Source of the DNA: Desulfurococcaceae archaeon MEX13E-LK6-19
Lineage (GTDB): Archaea; Thermoproteota; Thermoprotei_A; Sulfolobales; Desulfurococcaceae
DNA length: 64,000 nt
Direction of reading: 5' to 3'
NCBI GenBank assembly: GCA_029637525.1
Contig: CP072660.1
Coordinates: forward strand, 1,203,612-1,267,611
Shown: piece after piece, positions 39,765-52,305 of the stretch
Position numbering within the stretch: the first letter of the stretch is position 1
Layout of the letters: each line of letters begins with the position of its first letter
Translations under genes and position numbers: made by a program
The notes under the pieces: model-generated
What the model saw: the letters and a program-made list of their open reading frames with translations, nothing else
Told to the model about the DNA's origin: nothing
The model's database searches: none

Positions 39765-40163
39765 GTGCCTAAGAGATTTGGTGTGTATATCCCTGAGGAC
39801 CTCGAGAAAGATGTGGAGCTCTGTATGAAAGCCTTGGGTCTTAAGAGTAAATCTCGCCTCATCCAGGAGGCGTTGCGGTCTTTTATAGTTGAGCATAAGT
39901 GGAGACTAAAAGGTAATGTAGCCGGGATTATTGGAGTGATATATAATCATGATGTAGGGGATGTTGATGAGAAGCTAACTGATGTACAACACGAGTACCT
40001 GGATATAATTAATAGTACTGTACATGTACACTTGGATAAAGAGAAATGTATGCTAGTTATAATAGTACGTGGCCCAACGAGCAGGATCAAGGAGTTGATA
40101 AATAAGATCATGGCGTTGAAGGGCGTATTGGTGGCAAGACCGATGCTTCTTGCGGCTGAGTAA
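39765..40163 (+). CDS. nikR: NikR-type nickel-responsive ribbon-helix-helix regulator
   Basis: 132 residues. Residues 1-45 are a ribbon-helix-helix domain (KRFGVYIPEDLEKDVELC, SKSRLIQEALRSF). The rest is an ACT-like metal-sensing domain in which H76, H87, H89 and C95 are all present at the same numbers as the square-planar Ni site of E. coli NikR. It should therefore bind nickel and then DNA as a tetramer. The GTG start follows GGTGGAGGTG by seven bases. Candidate targets are the importer/chelatase genes 2-11 kb downstream, which share a two-turn inverted repeat (inference). Confidence 0.9.
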   Translation: MPKRFGVYIPEDLEKDVELCMKALGLKSKSRLIQEALRSFIVEHKWRLKGNVAGIIGVIYNHDVGDVDEKLTDVQHEYLDIINSTVHVHLDKEKCMLVIIVRGPTSRIKELINKIMALKGVLVARPMLLAAE

Positions 40164-42341: not shown

Positions 42342-43142
42342 TCATAAATTAATGGCAGGGATCTTTGGTAGAACTATTGTGCGTTCATCCTTTGCTATAG
42401 TCTCGAACTCTACACCATATACCATGTTGAGGTTTCTTGGAGTTAATACTGTTGAAGGAGAACCATAGGCTACTACCTTGCCCTTATTAAGGAGTACTAT
42501 TTTGTCGCTGAAAAGAGAAGCCATTAATGGGTCGTGGAGAGTCATTATGGCAGCTTCAACTTTTCTATTCTTTACAAGACTCTTAATGATGCTCAATACT
42601 TTAAGTTCATTCGCTATATCGAGATGGGCTGTAGGCTCATCGAGTAATAGGATCTTTGCTTCCTGGACTAGTGCTCTAGCTATCAATACTAGTTGGAGCT
42701 GTCCTCCACTAACTTCGGCAATAGTCCTATCAGCCAGGTCTCTTATGCCTAGTTCCTCTAGGATCTCTAGTGCTCTCTCATACTCTCTCCTTGATGGGAG
42801 CGAGAACATTGAGTGATGTGGAGCCCTACCCATCAACACGAAGTCTATTACCTTGTATGCGAAGACGCTATGGTGTCTCTGGGGAACATAACCTATTATC
42901 TTGGCGAGTTCTCTACTAGTAATCTTGTTTACTTCCTTGCCGTTAATATAGATTGCTCCACGGGGTTTGAGTACTCTAAGAATACATTTGAGTATAGTGG
43001 TCTTACCAGCTCCATTAGGGCCTAGTATAGTTGTTACCTCGCCTCTAAGAATAGTGAATGAAACGTCTTCAAGAACCTTATGGACACCGTCATAAGAGTA
43101 GTTTAGGTTCTCGACACGAAGTATTATATTGCTTATCTCCAT
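42342..43142 (-). CDS. ABC transporter ATPase, BtuD/FecE/FhuC type
   Basis: 266 residues with Walker A GPNGAGKTT (about 39-47), Q-loop YVPQRHHSV, signature VSGGQLQLVLIARAL, Walker B KILLLDEPTAHLD and the H-loop TLHDP. The sequence matches ATPases of vitamin B12, haem and iron-chelate importers. Overlaps the permease gene by ten bases; third gene of the importer operon. Confidence 0.93.
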   Translation of the reverse strand: MEISNIILRVENLNYSYDGVHKVLEDVSFTILRGEVTTILGPNGAGKTTILKCILRVLKPRGAIYINGKEVNKITSRELAKIIGYVPQRHHSVFAYKVIDFVLMGRAPHHSMFSLPSRREYERALEILEELGIRDLADRTIAEVSGGQLQLVLIARALVQEAKILLLDEPTAHLDIANELKVLSIIKSLVKNRKVEAAIMTLHDPLMASLFSDKIVLLNKGKVVAYGSPSTVLTPRNLNMVYGVEFETIAKDERTIVLPKIPAINL

Positions 43143-44161
43143 ACTCTTCCAGCCCTCCTAAGTAAGTATATGAACAATGGGGCGCCCATCAGTGTAGTGA
43201 GTATTCCTATAGGGATTACTTCAGTCGTAAGGCATCTGGCTAGATCATCTGCCAAAACCATGTATGTTCCCCCAAGGAATACCGTGTAGAATATGACGTC
43301 ACGGTTGTCGGAGCCAATAGCTAGCCTGATGATGTGTGGCACTAGTAAGCCAACCCATCCTATGATCCCAGCGTAGGATACGGCTGTAGCAGCCATTAAC
43401 GCACATAGTACCGCACAGAACCCTCTCTCGAGGACAGGGTTTACGCCTAGTGCACGTGCTTCCTCGTCGCCAAGCGATAATATGTTGAGCCGCCACCTCA
43501 TTAGCACAAGCACTATAGTACATGGTATGATCACGATAGCCATTCTCTCTACATCACTCCACTTGGCAGCCTGCCCAATATCCCCCATGAGCCAGAAAGT
43601 TATGGATGCAAGTCTATGTGGATCTGGTGTAAGGAACTTCACCAACGATAATGCTGCTGAAAACAATGCATTAACTATAACACCTGACAAAACAAGAGAA
43701 ACTATAGACCCCCGCCCCCAGCCCCATGCTATAGCGAACACTATTATGAATGCCAGTAAGGCGAAAACAAGAGCTACCAGTTCTATAGGTATGTACCATG
43801 GTAGCAGAGCTATTGCAAGAGCCGCTCCGAATGCTGCACCAGCTGTTATCCCGAGTATATGAGTGCTTACAAGAGGGTTCCGGAGCATAGCTTGTAATGA
43901 GGCACCAGATGTAGCAAGAGCTATCCCTACTAATGCGGCTGCTAGTACGCGTGGAAGCCTGTACAGCAATACTATTCTCTCCACTGTCTCGGGAGGACTA
44001 TGGACAAGCCCTGGAGCCAATGCAGACAATATTGCCTCCAGGACATCAATAGGGCTTGTAGGATACCGTCCGAGAAACGAAGAGAAGATTATGGACAATG
44101 GTAGTGAAAAAACAATCAATATCTTTGCCACAGTTTTTCTCTCCATAACATTACTCACCAA
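43133..44161 (-). CDS. ABC transporter permease, BtuC/FecCD family
   Basis: 342 residues, about ten membrane helices. FecCD landmarks: LPRVLAAALVGIALATSGASLQAMLRNPL, GVIVNALFSAALSL and SYAGIIGWVGLLVPHIIRL, the last being the coupling-helix region that contacts the ATPase. This class imports cobalamin, haem, siderophores and other metal chelates. Overlaps the ATPase gene by ten bases and the binding-protein gene by eleven. Confidence 0.93.
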   Translation of the reverse strand: MVSNVMERKTVAKILIVFSLPLSIIFSSFLGRYPTSPIDVLEAILSALAPGLVHSPPETVERIVLLYRLPRVLAAALVGIALATSGASLQAMLRNPLVSTHILGITAGAAFGAALAIALLPWYIPIELVALVFALLAFIIVFAIAWGWGRGSIVSLVLSGVIVNALFSAALSLVKFLTPDPHRLASITFWLMGDIGQAAKWSDVERMAIVIIPCTIVLVLMRWRLNILSLGDEEARALGVNPVLERGFCAVLCALMAATAVSYAGIIGWVGLLVPHIIRLAIGSDNRDVIFYTVFLGGTYMVLADDLARCLTTEVIPIGILTTLMGAPLFIYLLRRAGRVWR

Positions 44162-46232
44162 CTACATCGCTATAAGATACACCATACCACTTCATGTAGT
44201 ATTCGTTCGCTATCTCCATGAAGTCTATGTCGCTGAACTTCTCCGGGTACATCTTCTGCGCAAGCCATAGTATAAACAATGATGCATCCATGTTCCAGTG
44301 CTCATAGTATGGCTCTTTATACACCCTACCTTCTTCAACAGCTTTTATCGCCGCCCACGCGGGGTCATTTAGGATTGTTGATTCATTGTATCTAGCGTGA
44401 TACCATATAATTATTATGTCGGGGTTCCAGGAGACTATGGTCTCGAAGTCGACTAGAACATATGTTTTATCCGGTAGATCCTTTGCCGCGACATTGACTC
44501 CTCCTGCAAGCACTATGAAGTCGTTTACTGTCCCCTTACCTCCCTGTACTTTTGTTGGTTTACTCCACAAGTATAGAACACGTAGTTTCTCGTCGTCCGG
44601 TATGTCCTTGACACGTTCTTGTACCAGGCTAACTATGTGATCCATGTCATTGACTAGCTCTTCAGCACGATCCCTCTTATCGAATATAGTTCCTATAAGC
44701 CATAACAGCCTCTTTATATCCTCGTAGCTGTACAGCTGGATCTTTACTACAGGAATACCCATGGTCTCTATCTGCTCTATTACATCGGGTTTATAAGGCC
44801 ATATTATGACTAAATCGGGGTCAAGTGCTGTAAGGTTCTCAATGTTTACTGAGAAACTACTGCCAGGGCTAGGTATCTCTGTTATGTTGGGATAAGCTGT
44901 TTTGACTAAGACGTTTGTGTAAGCGTATTTCGATACACCAACGAGTTTATCCATGACGCCAAAAGCTATGAGTGTCTCGTAGGTTATGAAGTCTACTACT
45001 CTCTCAACTTTCCTAGGTATCTTTACTGTGGTGTTAGTCATGTCTATTACTTCTTTCCACACAATATTGTATGCTGCAAATGCTTGTTTTGGTATAAAGA
45101 CTCCGTAGAAGTTCCTGAGCAAGTACTCCATGTCAGCCCTCCAGTCTACATCACTATATACATCGGGGTAGAGTATCTTGGCAAGATACTCGCGGCCAAT
45201 AATATCCCTAGGCCCCCAGTCAAGTACTCCGCCTATAGAGCTCCAGCATGGTATAACAAAGATCTTGTTGTTCTTGTACGCTTTGAGAGTCTCCCATTTA
45301 GGGTCATTTGCTATTTTATCTAGCACGGTTTGTATCTTGGAGACAGATGATATAATCACGATTACATCAGGATCCCATGACGCGAGCGTCTCGAAGTCTA
45401 TCTTAGGCCATTCCTCATTGGGGAACTCTTTGAGAGCTATATTAATTGCGCCAACATCCTCTACTGCTCTACCCCAAGAAGTGTTTGCGTAGACACTCAA
45501 CTGTCCTTCCTTGAGTATACTTGTCCCGGATATCATGACTACTCGTAGCCTCTGTTCATCAGGTATGGTAGATGCTTTCTCTAGTAGTGTCTGGTAACGT
45601 GTGATTATGAACTCCTTTAGCTCCTCGGCCTTATCTTCAGCACCCACTATCTTGCCCAGTATTTCTAGTGCCTTTACTTCGTCGTTGATTGATCTTATGA
45701 ACAAGCCTACTACGGGTATGCCGAGATTCTCTATTTGCTCAGCAATCTCATCGGCTTTACTGTACCCACAATCCATGATAACTACATCAGGATCCAGTGC
45801 AGCAACCTCCTCTATATTCACTCCCTTGAACACGCTTCCAACAACAGTCTTGTTCCTTATACTAGCAGGTAAATAGTGATCATAGGGTACATAACTACCT
45901 ATACCAACTATCTTGTCTCCAGCACCTAATGCCAAGAGGATCTCGGCCCAATATGATGACAAAACAACTATTCTTTCAGCAGGTTTCTCTAATGTTACAG
46001 TCTTGCCCCTGAAGTCCGTGACTGTAATAACTGTAGGCGGGACTGTTGTGGTTGTAGTAGTTGTAGTGGTGGTAGTCGTAGTTGTTGTGGTAATGGTTGT
46101 TGTGATAGTTGTTTCTTGTTGAGGAGCTAGAAACCATGGATATAGTGTTATGGTGCCTGCTGCAATAGCGATAGCGATCAAGATGATTACTATTGCGATA
46201 GATGTTTTTGTAAGAGCACTTCTATATCTCAT
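44151..46232 (-). CDS. Membrane-tethered substrate-binding protein with two tandem BtuF/FepB-type domains
   Basis: 693 residues from ATG 46232; the TTG at 46253 is less likely because it splits an inverted repeat. An N-terminal anchor helix (about 10-33) is followed by a threonine-only linker, a typical O-glycosylated spacer. Two PF01497-like domains then follow: one from VTDFRGKTVTLEKPAERIVVL to about residue 360, a second from VDMTNTTVKIPRKVERVV-like sequence to the end. Each has NIEEVAALDPDVVI / NIENLTALDPDLVI. The normal protein has one such domain, so this is a duplication-fusion. First gene of the importer operon. Confidence 0.88.
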   Translation of the reverse strand: MRYRSALTKTSIAIVIILIAIAIAAGTITLYPWFLAPQQETTITTTITTTTTTTTTTTTTTTTVPPTVITVTDFRGKTVTLEKPAERIVVLSSYWAEILLALGAGDKIVGIGSYVPYDHYLPASIRNKTVVGSVFKGVNIEEVAALDPDVVIMDCGYSKADEIAEQIENLGIPVVGLFIRSINDEVKALEILGKIVGAEDKAEELKEFIITRYQTLLEKASTIPDEQRLRVVMISGTSILKEGQLSVYANTSWGRAVEDVGAINIALKEFPNEEWPKIDFETLASWDPDVIVIISSVSKIQTVLDKIANDPKWETLKAYKNNKIFVIPCWSSIGGVLDWGPRDIIGREYLAKILYPDVYSDVDWRADMEYLLRNFYGVFIPKQAFAAYNIVWKEVIDMTNTTVKIPRKVERVVDFITYETLIAFGVMDKLVGVSKYAYTNVLVKTAYPNITEIPSPGSSFSVNIENLTALDPDLVIIWPYKPDVIEQIETMGIPVVKIQLYSYEDIKRLLWLIGTIFDKRDRAEELVNDMDHIVSLVQERVKDIPDDEKLRVLYLWSKPTKVQGGKGTVNDFIVLAGGVNVAAKDLPDKTYVLVDFETIVSWNPDIIIIWYHARYNESTILNDPAWAAIKAVEEGRVYKEPYYEHWNMDASLFILWLAQKMYPEKFSDIDFMEIANEYYMKWYGVSYSDVVGE
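46044..46113. repeat. Low-complexity GTN/ACN tract coding a poly-threonine linker
   Basis: About 70 bases of near-perfect trinucleotide repeats (read as ACN on the minus strand) encode a run of threonines broken by two isoleucines. It joins the membrane anchor to the first ligand-binding domain. Codon third positions vary, so the run is selected at protein level rather than a recent slippage tract. Confidence 0.8.
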
Positions 46233-46236
46233 ATGG

Positions 46237-46262
46237 TACACCCTGTAATTCAAGCTGGTGTA
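46237..46262. promoter_or_regulatory. Operator copy 1: TACACC-N14-GGTGTA before the binding-protein gene
   Basis: A perfect inverted repeat; the arms extend to eight bases (GGTACACC at 46235-46242 and GGTGTACC at 46257-46264) with a 14-base spacer. It lies five bases upstream of the preferred ATG of the importer operon, downstream of a shared AT-rich promoter near 46290-46299. Confidence 0.65.
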
Positions 46263-46304
46263 CCTAGAGGGTTTTTAGACAGGGGCTAAGGTTAATAAAT
46301 CTGG

Positions 46305-46330
46305 TGCATCATCGACTATAGATAGGTGCA
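46305..46330. promoter_or_regulatory. Operator copy 2: TGCATC-N14-GGTGCA before the CobN-like gene
   Basis: An inverted repeat with one mismatch and the same 14-base spacer as copy 1. It overlaps the expected transcription start and the AGGTG ribosome site of the chelatase gene (TTG at 46336). Confidence 0.55.
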
Positions 46331-46335
46331 CTTAA

Positions 46336-48726
46336 TTGAGTTTAACGCTAGGGTTCACCATAGGCTACGGCGCAGCTATGGCACCAGTCCTCATTAATGT
46401 TCTCGAGAAACTTAGTAGTAGACACGGATTCAACTATACCGTCATCACACCGTATAGATACTCACGTGAAGACCTAGAGGCTCTAAAGAAGGCCAATGTT
46501 GTCCTAGTATACTCCTCTCCCATGAGCCAGGAGATAGAAGATATCTTGAAGGGCTTGCGTGATAAGGGAGCAAAGATCATAGCTGTTGACGAGAACCATG
46601 CAGAACTCTCAAATGTGAACCCGAGAGTTGTCTCGCAGGCAGCGGCGTACTTGAAGATTGGTGGTAGAGAGAATATTGAATCGCTAGTGCTACTCATGCT
46701 AAAGGAGGCTGGTTTACCTGTTTCTGTACCTGAGCCAGAGAATATTCCATGGCATGGAATATATCATCCGAGGTACGGTGTTTTCACTGAGCTTAACGAG
46801 TACCTTAAGACGTATCATTTCTCCTCAAGACCCCTTGTAGGCATATTGTTTTATAGGAGTGACTGGCTTTACGGGAGGACTGTTGTTGTAGACAAGCTTG
46901 TAGAGAAGCTTGAGTCTCTTGGCCTGGGTGTTGTACCTGTCTTCACATATAGTTTCCGCGACGACAAACTCGGTATTCCTGGGTCAGAGGATAGTATAAG
47001 AGAGTTCTTCTTCAAGGACAATAAGCCAGTTATTGACGTGCTCATCAAGCTTACATCATTCTTCCTTCTAGACCATGGTAGAAGCAGTGAATGGCCTACC
47101 AAGGGATTCAGTGTCGCTGGAATAGAGCTTCTTAAAAAGCTTGGCGTACCCATTATCCAATGCATTATAACCTACTATAAATCCCCTGAGGAGTGGCTTA
47201 GAGACGAGCATGGAGTAGGCTATATGACTATAGTCTACCGTGTTGCTATGCCGGAAGTCGACGGTGTTATAGAGCCTATTGTCGTGGCCGGCACTAAAGT
47301 AGGTGGTTACGGGGAGAAAAAGATCATATCTATTGACGAGCATATAGACTACATTGCGAGGAGGGTCAAGAAATGGATTGTACTGCGGAGGAAAAAGCCT
47401 TGTGAGAGAAGAATAGCTATAGTATTGATTAACCCGCCATGTAAGGGAGTTGAAGCAAATATTGGCGTCGGCCTGGGACTCGATGTTCCCGAGAGTGTTG
47501 TCAGGTTTCTCAAGAAGCTGAAGGAAGAAGGCTATAATGTCGGTGACAAGATCCCTGAGACGGGTGAAGAGCTCATCAAGATGTTTATGGAGAAGAAGGC
47601 TTTCAGCGAGTTTAGGTGGACTCCTGTTGAAGAGATCGTGGCACGTGGCGGTGCACTAGGCTTCGTTGGTAGAGAAGAATACTTGAAGTGGTTTAATGAG
47701 CTGCCGGAGACTGTTAGAAAGAAAATGATCGAGACATGGGGTAGTCCTGATGACGTGCTTATGGGCCGTACGGATAAGGTGTTGGCTGGGATGGTTTACG
47801 AGGGTAAATTCGTTGTCCCCGGGCTAAGGTTTGGCAACATTATTGTTTTGCCACAGCCCAAACGTGGTTGTGCAGGACCTCGTTGTGATGGCAGAGTCTG
47901 TAAGATACTTCATGACCCAACTATTCCTCCACCACACCAATGGCTAGCTGTGTATAGGTGGATTACGAGAGTATTCAAAGCCGATGTAGTCATACATTTT
48001 GGTACACATGGTTACCTAGAGTTCCTGCCCGGCAAGGGAGTAGGGTTATCTTGGATGTGCTGGCCAGAGATCTCTATAGATGATGTACCACACCTATACG
48101 TGTATGTAGTATCTAACCCTATGGAGGGTGTTGTCGCTAAAAGGAGGGGTTATGCAGTCATAGTTGACCACTTGTACCCACCGATGAAGCATGCTGATGT
48201 ACTAAGTGATCTAGAGTCCTTGTTGGCACAATACAGTCATGCCAAGACAATGGGCGACAATGCTAGAGCATCCATAACCTATAAGCAGTTGCTTGAGAAA
48301 GCAAGAGAACATAATATCAAGCTGCCTAGTGGGGCTAGTGAAGAAGAGGTTGTAGAGTATCTACACAGGTACATCCATATGGTGAAGAACACCCAGGTGA
48401 ACAAGGGTCTACACATCTTGGGTCATCCACCAGTTGATGCTAGAGAGCTAGCAGAGTATGTAGCTACTATAATGAGTTTCGATACCTACAGGACTCCTTC
48501 GATAAAGAGGGTTCTGGCAGAGTATCTTGGTCTTGATTATGATGAGCTCCGGAGGAAGCCTATGGAGTTAAACAAGGTGTATGGTATCAGGAATAGCGAG
48601 CTTCTAGACAGGCTCCATTTGATTGCTGTGTCTGTTCTCGAGAAACTCATTGAGAGGGAAGACATGGGGGAGGAAGAGATCATTAGGGTTGTTGAAGAAG
48701 AGGCTAGAAGGTGGCTTCAAAAGTGA
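46336..48726 (+). CDS. cobN: CobN/BchH-like metallo-chelatase large subunit, N-terminal part (split gene)
   Basis: 796 residues covering roughly the first 60 percent of a CobN/ChlH-type subunit (usually 1200-1300 residues in one chain). Landmarks: PEVDGVIEPIVVAGT, RRIAIVLINPPCKGVEANIGVGLGLDVPES, PPPHQWLAVYRWI, HFGTHGYLEFLPGK (H near 558) and AKRRGYAVIVDHLYPPM. CobN inserts Co2+ into hydrogenobyrinate diamide with ATP; related subunits insert Mg2+, and the Bacteroides relative HmuS removes iron from haem. The metal and ring here are unknown. Start TTG at 46336; stop overlaps the next start as TGATG. Confidence 0.85.
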   Translation: MSLTLGFTIGYGAAMAPVLINVLEKLSSRHGFNYTVITPYRYSREDLEALKKANVVLVYSSPMSQEIEDILKGLRDKGAKIIAVDENHAELSNVNPRVVSQAAAYLKIGGRENIESLVLLMLKEAGLPVSVPEPENIPWHGIYHPRYGVFTELNEYLKTYHFSSRPLVGILFYRSDWLYGRTVVVDKLVEKLESLGLGVVPVFTYSFRDDKLGIPGSEDSIREFFFKDNKPVIDVLIKLTSFFLLDHGRSSEWPTKGFSVAGIELLKKLGVPIIQCIITYYKSPEEWLRDEHGVGYMTIVYRVAMPEVDGVIEPIVVAGTKVGGYGEKKIISIDEHIDYIARRVKKWIVLRRKKPCERRIAIVLINPPCKGVEANIGVGLGLDVPESVVRFLKKLKEEGYNVGDKIPETGEELIKMFMEKKAFSEFRWTPVEEIVARGGALGFVGREEYLKWFNELPETVRKKMIETWGSPDDVLMGRTDKVLAGMVYEGKFVVPGLRFGNIIVLPQPKRGCAGPRCDGRVCKILHDPTIPPPHQWLAVYRWITRVFKADVVIHFGTHGYLEFLPGKGVGLSWMCWPEISIDDVPHLYVYVVSNPMEGVVAKRRGYAVIVDHLYPPMKHADVLSDLESLLAQYSHAKTMGDNARASITYKQLLEKAREHNIKLPSGASEEEVVEYLHRYIHMVKNTQVNKGLHILGHPPVDARELAEYVATIMSFDTYRTPSIKRVLAEYLGLDYDELRRKPMELNKVYGIRNSELLDRLHLIAVSVLEKLIEREDMGEEEIIRVVEEEARRWLQK

Positions 48727-50243
48727 TGGCTCCCCGTAGAGAGAAGGCAGACAAGGTTATTGAAGTGCTCAAGTACGCTGTCCAGGTAGCAAGACTCATT
48801 AGGGAATGTAGACGGGAGACAACGAGTTTGATCGATGGATTAGCGGGATCTTATATAGAACCCGGTGCCTCTGGCGCGCTTACACGCGGTAAAATAGAGG
48901 TTCTTCCCACAGGGAGAAACTTCTATCTCATAGACCCACGTACACTCCCTACAAAAGCTGCATGGATTGTTGGCAGGGACTCTGCCGAGAAGCTCTTGAG
49001 ACATTATCTAGAGAAGCATGGTAGGTATCCTGAGAGTGTCGGCGAGGTACTATGGAGTATTGATGCCTACAAGGCTGATGGCGAACAATTAGCGCAGATA
49101 CTATACCTCATAGGTGTTGAGCCCGTCTGGGATGGTAATGGTGTTGTCAGGGATCTCAGGGTTATACCATTGGAGGAGCTTGGGAGACCACGCATAGATG
49201 TTGTCGTCAGGATAAGTGGTATTGTCCGTGATACATTACCGAACTACATAGAGCTTATAGACAAAGCGGTGGCCAAAGTTATCGCTCTGGATGAACCTCT
49301 TGACAAGAACTATGTTAAGAAACATTATCTTGAGAACATGAAGAAGCTTGTTGAACTAGGTGTTGAGCCTAGGAGAGCCGAGAAAATGGCTCGTTACCGT
49401 GTCTATGGTGCTCCACCGGGCGCTTATGGTGCTGGTGTTAACCTTGCTGTTGAGGCATCTGCCTGGAAGACTGATATGGATCTCGCTAAAATATGGATAC
49501 AGTGGAGCGGCTACGCCTACGGTATCGACTCCTATGGAGAACCGGCTCATGAAGCGCTTGTACTCAGTCTAGAACGTGTTGATGTTGTTAACAGGAATCA
49601 CGTGAGCGATGAACATGACATATTTGGTTGTTGCTGCTACTTCGCTTACCATGGAGGATTCTACAATGCAGTCAAGGCTTTGACCAAGAGGAGCGATATC
49701 GAGATAGTTACTGTTGACACACGTGATATCTCCAGTGTTGAAGTAAGAGACATGGATCTCGAGATCGAGAGGATTACTAGAGCAAAGCTACTCAATAGAG
49801 AATGGATAAACGAGATGAAGAAACACGGGTACCGTGGCGCCAACGAGTTCCAGAGAAAGATACTACACCTCTACGGATGGGCTTCCACAACAAGAATGGT
49901 TCCCGACTGGGTTTTCCAGGAGATAGCCGAGACCTATGTACTTGATGAAGAGATGAAGAAGTGGTTTATGGAGCACAACGTCTGGGCGCTTGAGGAGATC
50001 ACTAGGAGGCTTATCGAGGCAGCTTTGAGAGGGTTATGGAAGCCTAGTAGGGAACTACTAGACAAGCTTAGGAAAACACATACAGAGATCGAAGGCTTCC
50101 TAGAGGAAGACATAACCACTCCCGGTGAAGTACAAGGAGGCTATATAGACGTAGTCATGCCAGACCAAGTAAGCTCGTGGAGTAAATCGATCGAGAGAAT
50201 AGAGACTATTATAAAGAGGTTTAAGGAAATTACTGGGAAATAA
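48726..50243 (+). CDS. cobN: CobN/BchH-like metallo-chelatase large subunit, C-terminal part (split gene)
   Basis: 505 residues from the ATG at 48726, which overlaps the stop of the N-terminal half as TGATG, with GAAGGTGG upstream; a GTG at 48711 is the alternative. It carries the rest of the CobN consensus: VLPTGRNFYLIDPRTLPTKAAW, HGRYPESVGEVLW, LGRPRIDVVVRISGIVRDTLPNYI and YGAPPGAYGAGVNLAVEASAW. The two products add up to one normal CobN chain, so they probably assemble into one subunit. No sign of decay in either half. Confidence 0.85.
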   Translation: MAPRREKADKVIEVLKYAVQVARLIRECRRETTSLIDGLAGSYIEPGASGALTRGKIEVLPTGRNFYLIDPRTLPTKAAWIVGRDSAEKLLRHYLEKHGRYPESVGEVLWSIDAYKADGEQLAQILYLIGVEPVWDGNGVVRDLRVIPLEELGRPRIDVVVRISGIVRDTLPNYIELIDKAVAKVIALDEPLDKNYVKKHYLENMKKLVELGVEPRRAEKMARYRVYGAPPGAYGAGVNLAVEASAWKTDMDLAKIWIQWSGYAYGIDSYGEPAHEALVLSLERVDVVNRNHVSDEHDIFGCCCYFAYHGGFYNAVKALTKRSDIEIVTVDTRDISSVEVRDMDLEIERITRAKLLNREWINEMKKHGYRGANEFQRKILHLYGWASTTRMVPDWVFQEIAETYVLDEEMKKWFMEHNVWALEEITRRLIEAALRGLWKPSRELLDKLRKTHTEIEGFLEEDITTPGEVQGGYIDVVMPDQVSSWSKSIERIETIIKRFKEITGK

Positions 50244-50279
50244 GTTTATCAATAAGCTTGTTCTTCTTTATTAACCTGG

Positions 50280-50305
50280 TGCACTCTCCTATTGAGGATA
50301 GTGCA
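50280..50305. promoter_or_regulatory. Operator copy 3: TGCACT-N14-AGTGCA before the ChlI-ChlD gene
   Basis: A perfect six-base inverted repeat with a 14-base spacer, 17 bases before the preferred ATG at 50323 and just after a TATA-like AAGTTTATCAATAA stretch. Same geometry as the two copies near 46.3 kb. Confidence 0.6.
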
Positions 50306-50322
50306 TATTGCAGTGTGGGATC

Positions 50323-52305
50323 ATGAATACAAGCGAGGTTGAGCGCAGGTTAGTGTTCCCATTCACAGCTATTGTAGGCATGGAGAAAGCCAAGCTAGCA
50401 CTGCTTGCCGTGGCTGTGAACCCGTTGATTGGAGGAGTACTGCTTAGAGGAGACAAGGGCACCGGTAAAACAACGCTTGTTCGTGCGCTAGCCAACGTAT
50501 TGCCGGAGATCGAGGTTGTAGCTAACTGCCCATTTAACTGTAATCCCAGGAATCCTATGGAGATGTGTGATAATTGTTACAAGAAATGGTTGAATGGTGA
50601 AGAGCTCCCTGTTGTAAAAAAGAAAATGACTGTCATAGACCTTCCGCTTAGTATTACTCCTGATAGACTTATTGGTACTATTGATTTTGAGAAAGCATTA
50701 CGTGAAGGCATAAGGGCTCTTAAACCTGGTATACTAGCTGAAGCCAATAGGAATATTCTCTACATAGATGAAGTGAATCTCCTGGACGACTACATAGCTG
50801 ACCTTATACTCGATGCCGCTGCCTATGGCTGGAATATTATTGAGAGAGAACACATCTCCTTCAAGCACCCAGCTAGATTCATACTTGTAGGAAGCATGAA
50901 TCCCGAGGAAGGAGAGCTTAGACCACAGCTCCTCGATAGATTCGGGCTCGTAGTAAATATCGAGGCCCCACAGGATCCCGAGACACGTGCTGAGATCGTT
51001 AGGAGGGTTGAAGAGTTCTCCAGAGACCCCGTTTCATTCTACAAGAAGTATGCTGGGAAAGAAAGAGAGCTTACTTCAAAGATTGCTAGAGCACGTGAGC
51101 TGCTTCAACATGTAGAAATAGATGATGATCTCTTGAAAATGCTGGCTAAGACACTTGTCGAGATGAAGGTGAGGACCTGTAGAGCGGAGATAGTCGTTGT
51201 CAGGACAGCGAAGGCCATAGCAGCACTCGATGGCAGGACAAGGGTCTCACTCGAAGATATTGAGAAAGCAATGGAGCTAGCGTTACCACATAGGCTATCT
51301 CTTAAGCCTCTTCAAAACACCTACATGGATAAAAAGCCAAGGCTCCTCGATATAAAAACAAATACGGAGGGAAAACACGGTAAAACAAGAGATGATGTTG
51401 CAGGAAAAGAGAAAAACAAGTCTATCAATCAAAGACTAGAACAAGCTCCGAGAGATGGTAATGGGGATAAAACAAGTTCTCCCGGTGAGTCATCAATAGT
51501 TATACCACCTGATAGAAACAACGAGTATAGAGTATCCCTTGGAGAAACAAGTCTATGGAAAAAAGATCGCGGAGATCTAAACAATGTAATTGGGTCGAGA
51601 TACAAGTATACAACTATTATAAACAAGCCTCTTGGCATACCAATATCGTATCTCTACCCTTACCCGAATCCTAGAGACATAGATATTGTTGGTACTATAA
51701 CTAACGTCCTATCCAACGGTATCAAGTATATAAACGAAGTTCCCGTCGATATACTGAATGATCTTATAGCTGTTCGTGTCAGAAGGAACCGGCTACCTGT
51801 TTTGACTATGATTATTCTCGACACAAGCGGCAGCATGAATGTGTCCAAAAGAATAGCTGTGGCTAAAGCTATTGCCCAAAAAATTATTGAAGACACGTAC
51901 ACAAAGAGGACATGGCTCTCCCTAATAACGTTCAGGAGTTATGGAGTAGACAAGTTCATACCGCCAACGAAGAACTATACAATGGTTTACAACGAGATAG
52001 CCAGAACGCCCACAGGCGGAAGAACACCATTGCCGGCGGCACTACAGAAAATAGTTCATGTAGCAAAGACTTTCAAGACAAAACATAAGAACGCGTATAT
52101 CAAGGCAATACTGATCACTGATGGCAAGGCGAATAAGCCCCTGGTAGATAATGTAGAGAAAGAAATCAAGGAGCTATCCAGTATCATTAGAATGGAGGGC
52201 ATCGACATGGATATTTATGATACACGTGGAAACACTCTAGACCCTGGAGTCTCATATGTTGAGATGATAGCTGATATTACAAGAGGAAGGCTTTACAGGA
52301 TCTAG
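50323..52305 (+). CDS. Fused ChlI-ChlD chelatase motor: AAA+ ATPase plus VWA domain
   Basis: 660 residues from ATG 50323. The AAA+ domain has [16 protein letters not shown], Walker [10 protein letters not shown] (43-51), a cysteine pair region NCPFNCNP / MCDNC, and Walker [13 protein letters not shown] polar linker (about 345-410) leads to the VWA domain with the MIDAS motif DTSGSM from D500. In cobalt and magnesium chelatases this motor drives the large subunit with ATP. Fusion of I and D subunits is known in archaea and some bacteria. Together with the split CobN this gives a complete chelatase. Its own operator and promoter precede it. Confidence 0.88.

Follow-up and report, generated by a model that had tools for sequence, protein, structure and literature searches.

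NikR is a repressor of nickel import that acts in its nickel-loaded form. A comparative study of 2006 reportedly dealt with nickel and cobalt transporters. NikR signals have been described as GTATGAT-N13/14-ATCATAC in enterobacteria and as GTGTTAC-N13/14-GTAACAC in delta-proteobacteria (PMC545781). NiuBDE of Helicobacter pylori is a FecCD-related nickel/cobalt importer, and the niuDE promoter appeared as a possible NikR target in ChIP-Seq (PMC5140060). According to a passage of PMC12350162, a CobN homologue (CobN1) and NikR1 are found at high level in methanogens only under nickel limitation.

The window, the whole stretch of 64,000 nucleotides that was analyzed here, carries by Pfam all parts of a FecCD-type importer (permease, ATPase and a binding protein with Peripla_BP_2 domains), together with the CobN and ChlID subunits of a chelatase, whose matches fall under the NCBIfam equivalog cut-offs (Table 1). 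The two parts of the split cobN gene overlap in different frames, and the two parts in related clusters likewise match separately. Three inverted repeats had been pointed out in this region in the initial annotation, and all of them were recovered at the same positions with the same symmetry: TACACC-N14-GGTGTA (46237-46262), TGCATC-N14-GGTGCA (46305-46330) and TGCACT-N14-AGTGCA (50280-50305). The repeat is perfect in copies 1 and 3 and carries a single mismatch in copy 2; the arms of copy 1 extend to eight bases (GGTACACC/GGTGTACC). Each of the three sites lies in a promoter, with a TATA-like box on one side and a start codon on the other. We consider it highly likely that these repeats are NikR-type nickel operators placed over an importer and chelatase cluster for nickel scavenging.

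Table 1. Features of the importer and chelatase locus, with positions counted from the first nucleotide of the window.
Feature	Position	Strand	Remarks
Operator 1, GTACACC-N14-GGTGTAC	46236..46263	-	Perfect; promoter of the binding-protein gene; kept in G113, G101 and G140
Operator 1, 8-base arms	46235-46242/46257-46264	-	3-5 bp upstream of the binding-protein ATG (46230-46232)
TATA-like box CTAAAAAC, binding-protein promoter	46271..46278	-	Directly upstream of operator 1; predicted from the sequence
Operator 2, GTGCATC-N14-GGTGCAC	46304..46331	+	cobN promoter; kept in G113, G101 and G140
TATA-like box TTAATAAA, cobN promoter	46292..46299	+	Just upstream of operator 2; predicted from the sequence
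Operator 3, GTGCACT-N14-AGTGCAT	50279..50306	+	chlI-chlD promoter; kept in G113, G101 and G140
TATA-like box TTTATTAA, chlID promoter	50267..50274	+	Predicted from the sequence
Periplasmic-type binding protein, two-domain	44151..46232	-	Two Peripla_BP_2 domains
FecCD-type ABC permease	43133..44161	-	PF01032, 1.1e-82
Importer ABC ATPase	42342..43142	-	PF00005
CobN-like chelatase large subunit, N-terminal part (split gene)	46336..48726	+	PF02514, profile positions 2-663
CobN-like chelatase large subunit, C-terminal part	48711..50243	+	PF02514, profile positions 676-1088
ChlI-ChlD fusion, AAA+/VWA chelatase subunit	50308..52305	+	TIGR02442 family, below its cut-off
NikR, presumed regulator	39765..40163	+	Ribbon-helix-helix strand RFGVYIP; complete Ni site QH...HxHx5C; NF002169 above cut-off

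Shuffling of the window gave an expectation of 0.40 matches to TRCAYY-N14-RRTGYA, compared with the three matches present, and at least three were reached in 3 of 100 shuffles; taken alone, this enrichment is modest. Over the whole genome (1.91 Mb), the pattern search returned nine matches and six with the reversed control, so the pattern is weakly specific. Three of the nine nevertheless fall inside 4.1 kb (p ~0.001 by simulation). The remaining six, like 15 matches one base shorter, all lie within open reading frames, although two of these frames may be spurious, being short (67 aa and about 119 aa).

Decisive support came from the comparison of genomes. The same cluster, with the binding protein-FecCD-ATPase genes facing away from a split cobN and chlID, also occurs in another genus of the family, g7 (G113, G101 and G140), and all three sites are kept there at the corresponding three promoters. 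In the alignments with these genomes, the half-sites stand out against poorly conserved flanks. Such retention of position in another genus argues that the three repeats are not a product of chance. Cob operons of family f3 have an N15 form of the operator at the operon head (L035 6908, L037 14344), and N16 forms are found in the cob genomes of family f8 (L036, L038, L040, L048). Outside Sulfolobaceae, the operator is present in 11 of 12 cob clusters, the twelfth (G110) having a weak site, whereas none of the six Sulfolobaceae clusters carries it (Fisher p = 4e-4, relatedness ignored). The latter family (f11) is probably Sulfolobaceae, judging from its gene content, and its six clusters can be taken as B12 clusters because CbiC lies close by. 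A scan of genome contigs for relatives gave three only, all fragmentary.

The consensus originally proposed, TRCAYY-N14-RGTGYA, does recur in other genomes, but the element is better written as GTGCACY-N13/14-RGTGCAC, with the core GTGCAC-N15/16-GTGCAC. Each half-site is a palindrome in its own right, and 21-22 bp separate the centres of the two. The sites of the window, with 10-11 of the 12 core bases, are weaker than the best sites of the order. Searches in 147 genomes of the order gave 64 sites for GTRCAYY-N14-RRTGYAC against 33 in the control, and the exact core was found 55 times against 17 in the control in the class-wide set of 147 genomes. Spacing was highly constrained in the window's own family (40 genomes), where 26 of 32 GTGCAC pairs with spacings of 8-24 were at 15 or 16 (binomial p about 3e-19, relatedness ignored). 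Some spare matches to the pattern, for example in G106, G116 and G130, were taken as chance, being inside genes or beside unrelated genes.

The genes downstream of the element were then considered. For 39 of the nikM genes identified by Pfam profile, we inspected the 160 bp ahead of the gene, leaving start-codon overlaps aside. At least 10 of the 12 core bases were present upstream of 22 of the 39, at 2-26 bp before the ATG, and the nikM genes with an operator span seven families (f1, f2, f3, f4, f5, f8 and f10). When spacings from 6 to 30 were scanned, N15 was found at 16 genes and N16 at 12 genes, with mostly 0-3 elsewhere. About 10 of the 39, including all those of f9, had no good site within the 160 bp upstream. 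Matches at nikM in f7 and in some f8 genomes were discarded as artefacts, the GTGCAC there being the start codon and His codon of MHIPDG; the N25/26 matches of the spacing scan probably reflect the same start-codon artefact (ATGCAC). The operator also precedes the NiCoT (NicO) permease gene of G056, [NiFe]-hydrogenase small subunit genes, hypB followed by hypA, and FmdE-binding protein-FecCD operons and other FecCD-type importers. In G167, from another order of the class, it lies before a radical SAM gene and before two operons, one for a binding protein with FecCD and the other for a binding protein with FmdE and an ATPase. The enrichment upstream of orthologous genes on which the initial annotation had made its proposal depend was thus found at FecCD-type importers, cobN clusters, nikM, NiCoT, hydrogenase and hypB. 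Between a putative TATA box and the start codon, GTGCAC-N15/16-GTGCAC is therefore shared by nickel-uptake and nickel-enzyme genes of the order and by the three transcription units of the cluster, and we regard the repeats as very probably the genuine operator of a nickel regulon.

Genes without a known nickel role, namely a small membrane protein pair and a radical SAM gene, are also preceded by the operator, which counts against the reading as a nickel regulon. The pair consists of a protein with MACFITP...EHxWHGEVVPWPPFLTAM and a partner with WGAxIMFxVD. In many genomes this pair has the operator, and the two genes often diverge from a single site (L165:6029-6672; L109, L110, L117, L119, L149, L155, L158, L164, L167, L262, L264, L266, L267, L268). 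The MACFITP protein had zero matches in Pfam or NCBIfam, and its partner only negligible ones; the pair is a candidate for a new nickel-responsive membrane system. The radical SAM enzyme, repeatedly found behind the operator (L113, L118, L131, L154, L166, L258, L261, L263), has its closest match in the heme-degrading HutW/ChuW family, though below cut-off. Operators of f8 were also located before genes of a presumed redox enzyme, comprising a ferredoxin-like protein and a 578-aa secreted-looking protein (L123, L134).

The regulator that would bind these sites is probably encoded close by. The nikR gene noted near the cluster is indeed intact: its product has the ribbon-helix-helix domain, NikR_C and all nickel ligands (QH, HxHx5C), and it aligns end to end with the NikR proteins of Pyrococcus horikoshii and E. 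coli. The NikR-like geometry also held, since 27-28 bp with N13/14 between 7-base arms are the dimensions of published NikR signals, and only the spacings 15 and 16 of the core are enriched. The GTGCAC half-site differs from the described NikR half-sites GTATGA and GTGTTAC, a difference that was not treated as excluding NikR because known half-sites vary between lineages. In E. coli NikR, three strand residues (R, T, T) contact DNA bases; the same positions are R, G and Y (R/K-G-Y) in the window-type NikR, which would fit a new half-site. Moreover, nikR adjoins or shares a cluster with an operator-bearing nikM (nikMNQO) in G145, G156, G065 and G010 (L112, L152, L161, L142), and in G012 it lies beside an operator-bearing radical SAM gene. 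The motif had been expected upstream of FecCD-type transporters, cobN and nikR. It is present at FecCD importers and cobN but was not found upstream of nikR itself, so that nikR would not be autoregulated through this operator; this, like the situation in family f8 described below, speaks against the NikR reading. The proposal that the three repeats are NikR operators is well supported by these sequence comparisons. In G020, which also lacks nikM and an exact operator, the nikR homologue (G020:C1:763019-763360) has an in-frame TAA, while the sister genome G065 has all three; this is an apparent joint loss of the nickel regulon.

Binding by the window-type NikR is quite probable in this genome, and the main competitor for that role is a paralogue, either G000:C1:537119 (RFGIS strand, HxHx4C; L169) or 602085. 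Such a paralogue of the RFGIS type does exist in G000, and family f8 has the operator without a window-type NikR, its paralogues having the strands RFGVS and KTGVA and some of them no Ni ligands; a paralogue must therefore serve in f8. For the window's genome we nonetheless judge this improbable. In ten genomes of its own family with exact operators (G030, G041, G049, G071, G077, G083, G089, G095, G118, G124), just one NikR homologue was found (E <= 1e-5); it is of the window type with a full Ni site, and the nikR adjoining an operator-bearing nikM is always of this type. The N15/16 site is missing from G135, whose only NikR homologue is weak and distant (E 1.7e-11). Paralogues with HxHx4C rather than HxHx5C and an RFGVS or RFGIS strand are widespread in the order (L169, L171, L173, L176, L187). 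An f8 NikR-like gene, in which the strand is KTG(V/I)A and the nickel ligands are eroded, is located near [NiFe]-hydrogenase operons (L122, L126, L132, L172, L174), and is possibly a NikR descendant with a new signal.

Genome content gave further clues regarding the metal. Both the RICGIC and the DPCIPC motif are present in the [NiFe] hydrogenase large subunit encoded by the window's genome (L239), and the organism therefore needs nickel. NikM/CbiM and NicO were not found in this genome; NikABCDE was outside the search, as family alone cannot separate it from peptide importers. CbiC and HemB were both not found in this genome, and HemB was absent from all sampled genomes of its family. The chelatase would therefore have no home-made tetrapyrrole to work on, and together with the nickel-regulon operator this makes nickel acquisition the simplest account of the cluster. 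We thus consider nickel the likely metal. It has to be weighed against a regulon answering to iron, cobalt or heme, in which the FecCD importer, CobN/ChlID and the HutW-like radical SAM enzyme would form a set for heme or cobalamin uptake and processing. The nearest curated models for the importers and the binding protein do concern heme, B12 and siderophores, the radical SAM family has the heme-degrading relatives mentioned above, and NiuBDE, an importer of the same type, carries cobalt too. The occurrence of the same operator before nikM, NicO, [NiFe] hydrogenase and hypB-hypA, and the fact that corrin synthesis (CbiC) was not found in genomes with operator-bearing cobN-chlID-FecCD clusters, make this alternative rather unlikely. 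An ordinary B12 cobaltochelatase with ordinary cobalt-responsive sites is very improbable: Pfam and NCBIfam names read cobaltochelatase or Mg chelatase, but CbiC and HemB are missing and the true B12 clusters of Sulfolobaceae lack the operator. That the repeats are chance, or functionless relics of shared ancestry, is hardly credible. Three matches do arise in 3% of the in-window shuffles and the loose pattern is weakly enriched genome-wide, yet position is conserved in another genus, and motif, spacing and target genes are conserved across families.

The NikR-type nickel operators would then work as follows. A Ni(II)-loaded NikR tetramer would sit on both half-sites, each occupied by one of its ribbon-helix-helix dimers at a distance of two helical turns. 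Because the sites span from just past the TATA box to the start codon, the bound tetramer should block RNA polymerase; it would cover the transcription start and repress when nickel is sufficient. When nickel is scarce, NikR would be released, and the importer, CobN and ChlID would be made together. Less certainly, the FecCD-type importer could bring in a nickel chelate on whose ligand the CobN/ChlID chelatase would act, for example by taking nickel out of an imported tetrapyrrole. Such action of the chelatase on an imported chelate, be it a nickel tetrapyrrole or another, is a tentative suggestion. To our knowledge, metal removal is not known for class I chelatases, which counts against the dechelatase step. 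A broader scheme seems less likely still: Desulfurococcales and relatives lacking tetrapyrrole synthesis could scavenge nickel from nickel tetrapyrroles, such as F430 shed by methanogens, by FecCD uptake, an ATP-driven CobN/ChlID dechelatase and, in relatives, ring opening by the HutW-like radical SAM enzyme, all under NikR control.

The initial annotation knew of no described operator with this sequence, and a literature search on NikR and GTGCAC likewise yielded no paper, within the freely searchable literature, so an earlier mention is possible. NikR operators with lineage-specific half-sites are of a known kind; the surprise is a putative nickel operator over a CobN/ChlID chelatase in organisms that produce no tetrapyrroles. 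A readable nickel operator for an order of hyperthermophilic archaea would allow nickel genes to be read off. A group of FecCD-type importers, which annotation otherwise labels by default as systems for iron, heme or B12, would thereby be given a metal, as would a CobN/ChlID chelatase whose host cells make no tetrapyrrole and to which the usual B12 explanation cannot apply. Should the chelatase indeed free nickel from an imported ring, class I chelatases would gain a new direction of action, and hot anoxic habitats a novel way of recycling nickel. The methanogen data agree independently in that a CobN homologue rises with NikR under nickel starvation (PMC12350162).

Among known systems, the locus is close to the enterobacterial NikR operator of nikABCDE, GTATGA-N16-TCATAC. 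Both have half-sites of 6-7 bases with centres 22 bp apart and a total of 27-28 bp, both cover an importer promoter (the importer here being a putative nickel importer), and the NikR proteins have identical Ni ligands. They differ in the half-site (GTATGA, here GTGCAC), in the strand (R-T-T, here R/K-G-Y) and in the target, which is nikABCDE there and a FecCD-type importer with a chelatase here. The predicted delta-proteobacterial signal GTGTTAC-N13/14-GTAACAC shares the length, both spacings and the nikMQO and hydrogenase targets, but not the half-site sequence, and a chelatase or FecCD target is not described there (PMC545781). NiuBDE is likewise a Fec-type importer serving nickel and linked to NikR, although it belongs to a bacterium, has another operator and comes without CobN or ChlID. 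The CobN clusters of Sulfolobaceae encode homologous subunits, an aerobic-type cobaltochelatase CobN with ChlID-like subunits for B12 synthesis, but they stand beside CbiC and without the operator, whereas the window's genome has neither corrin genes nor HemB. Methanogens share the co-expression of a CobN homologue with a NikR homologue under nickel scarcity; they differ in making tetrapyrroles (F430, B12), and the passage of PMC12350162 concerned describes no operator.
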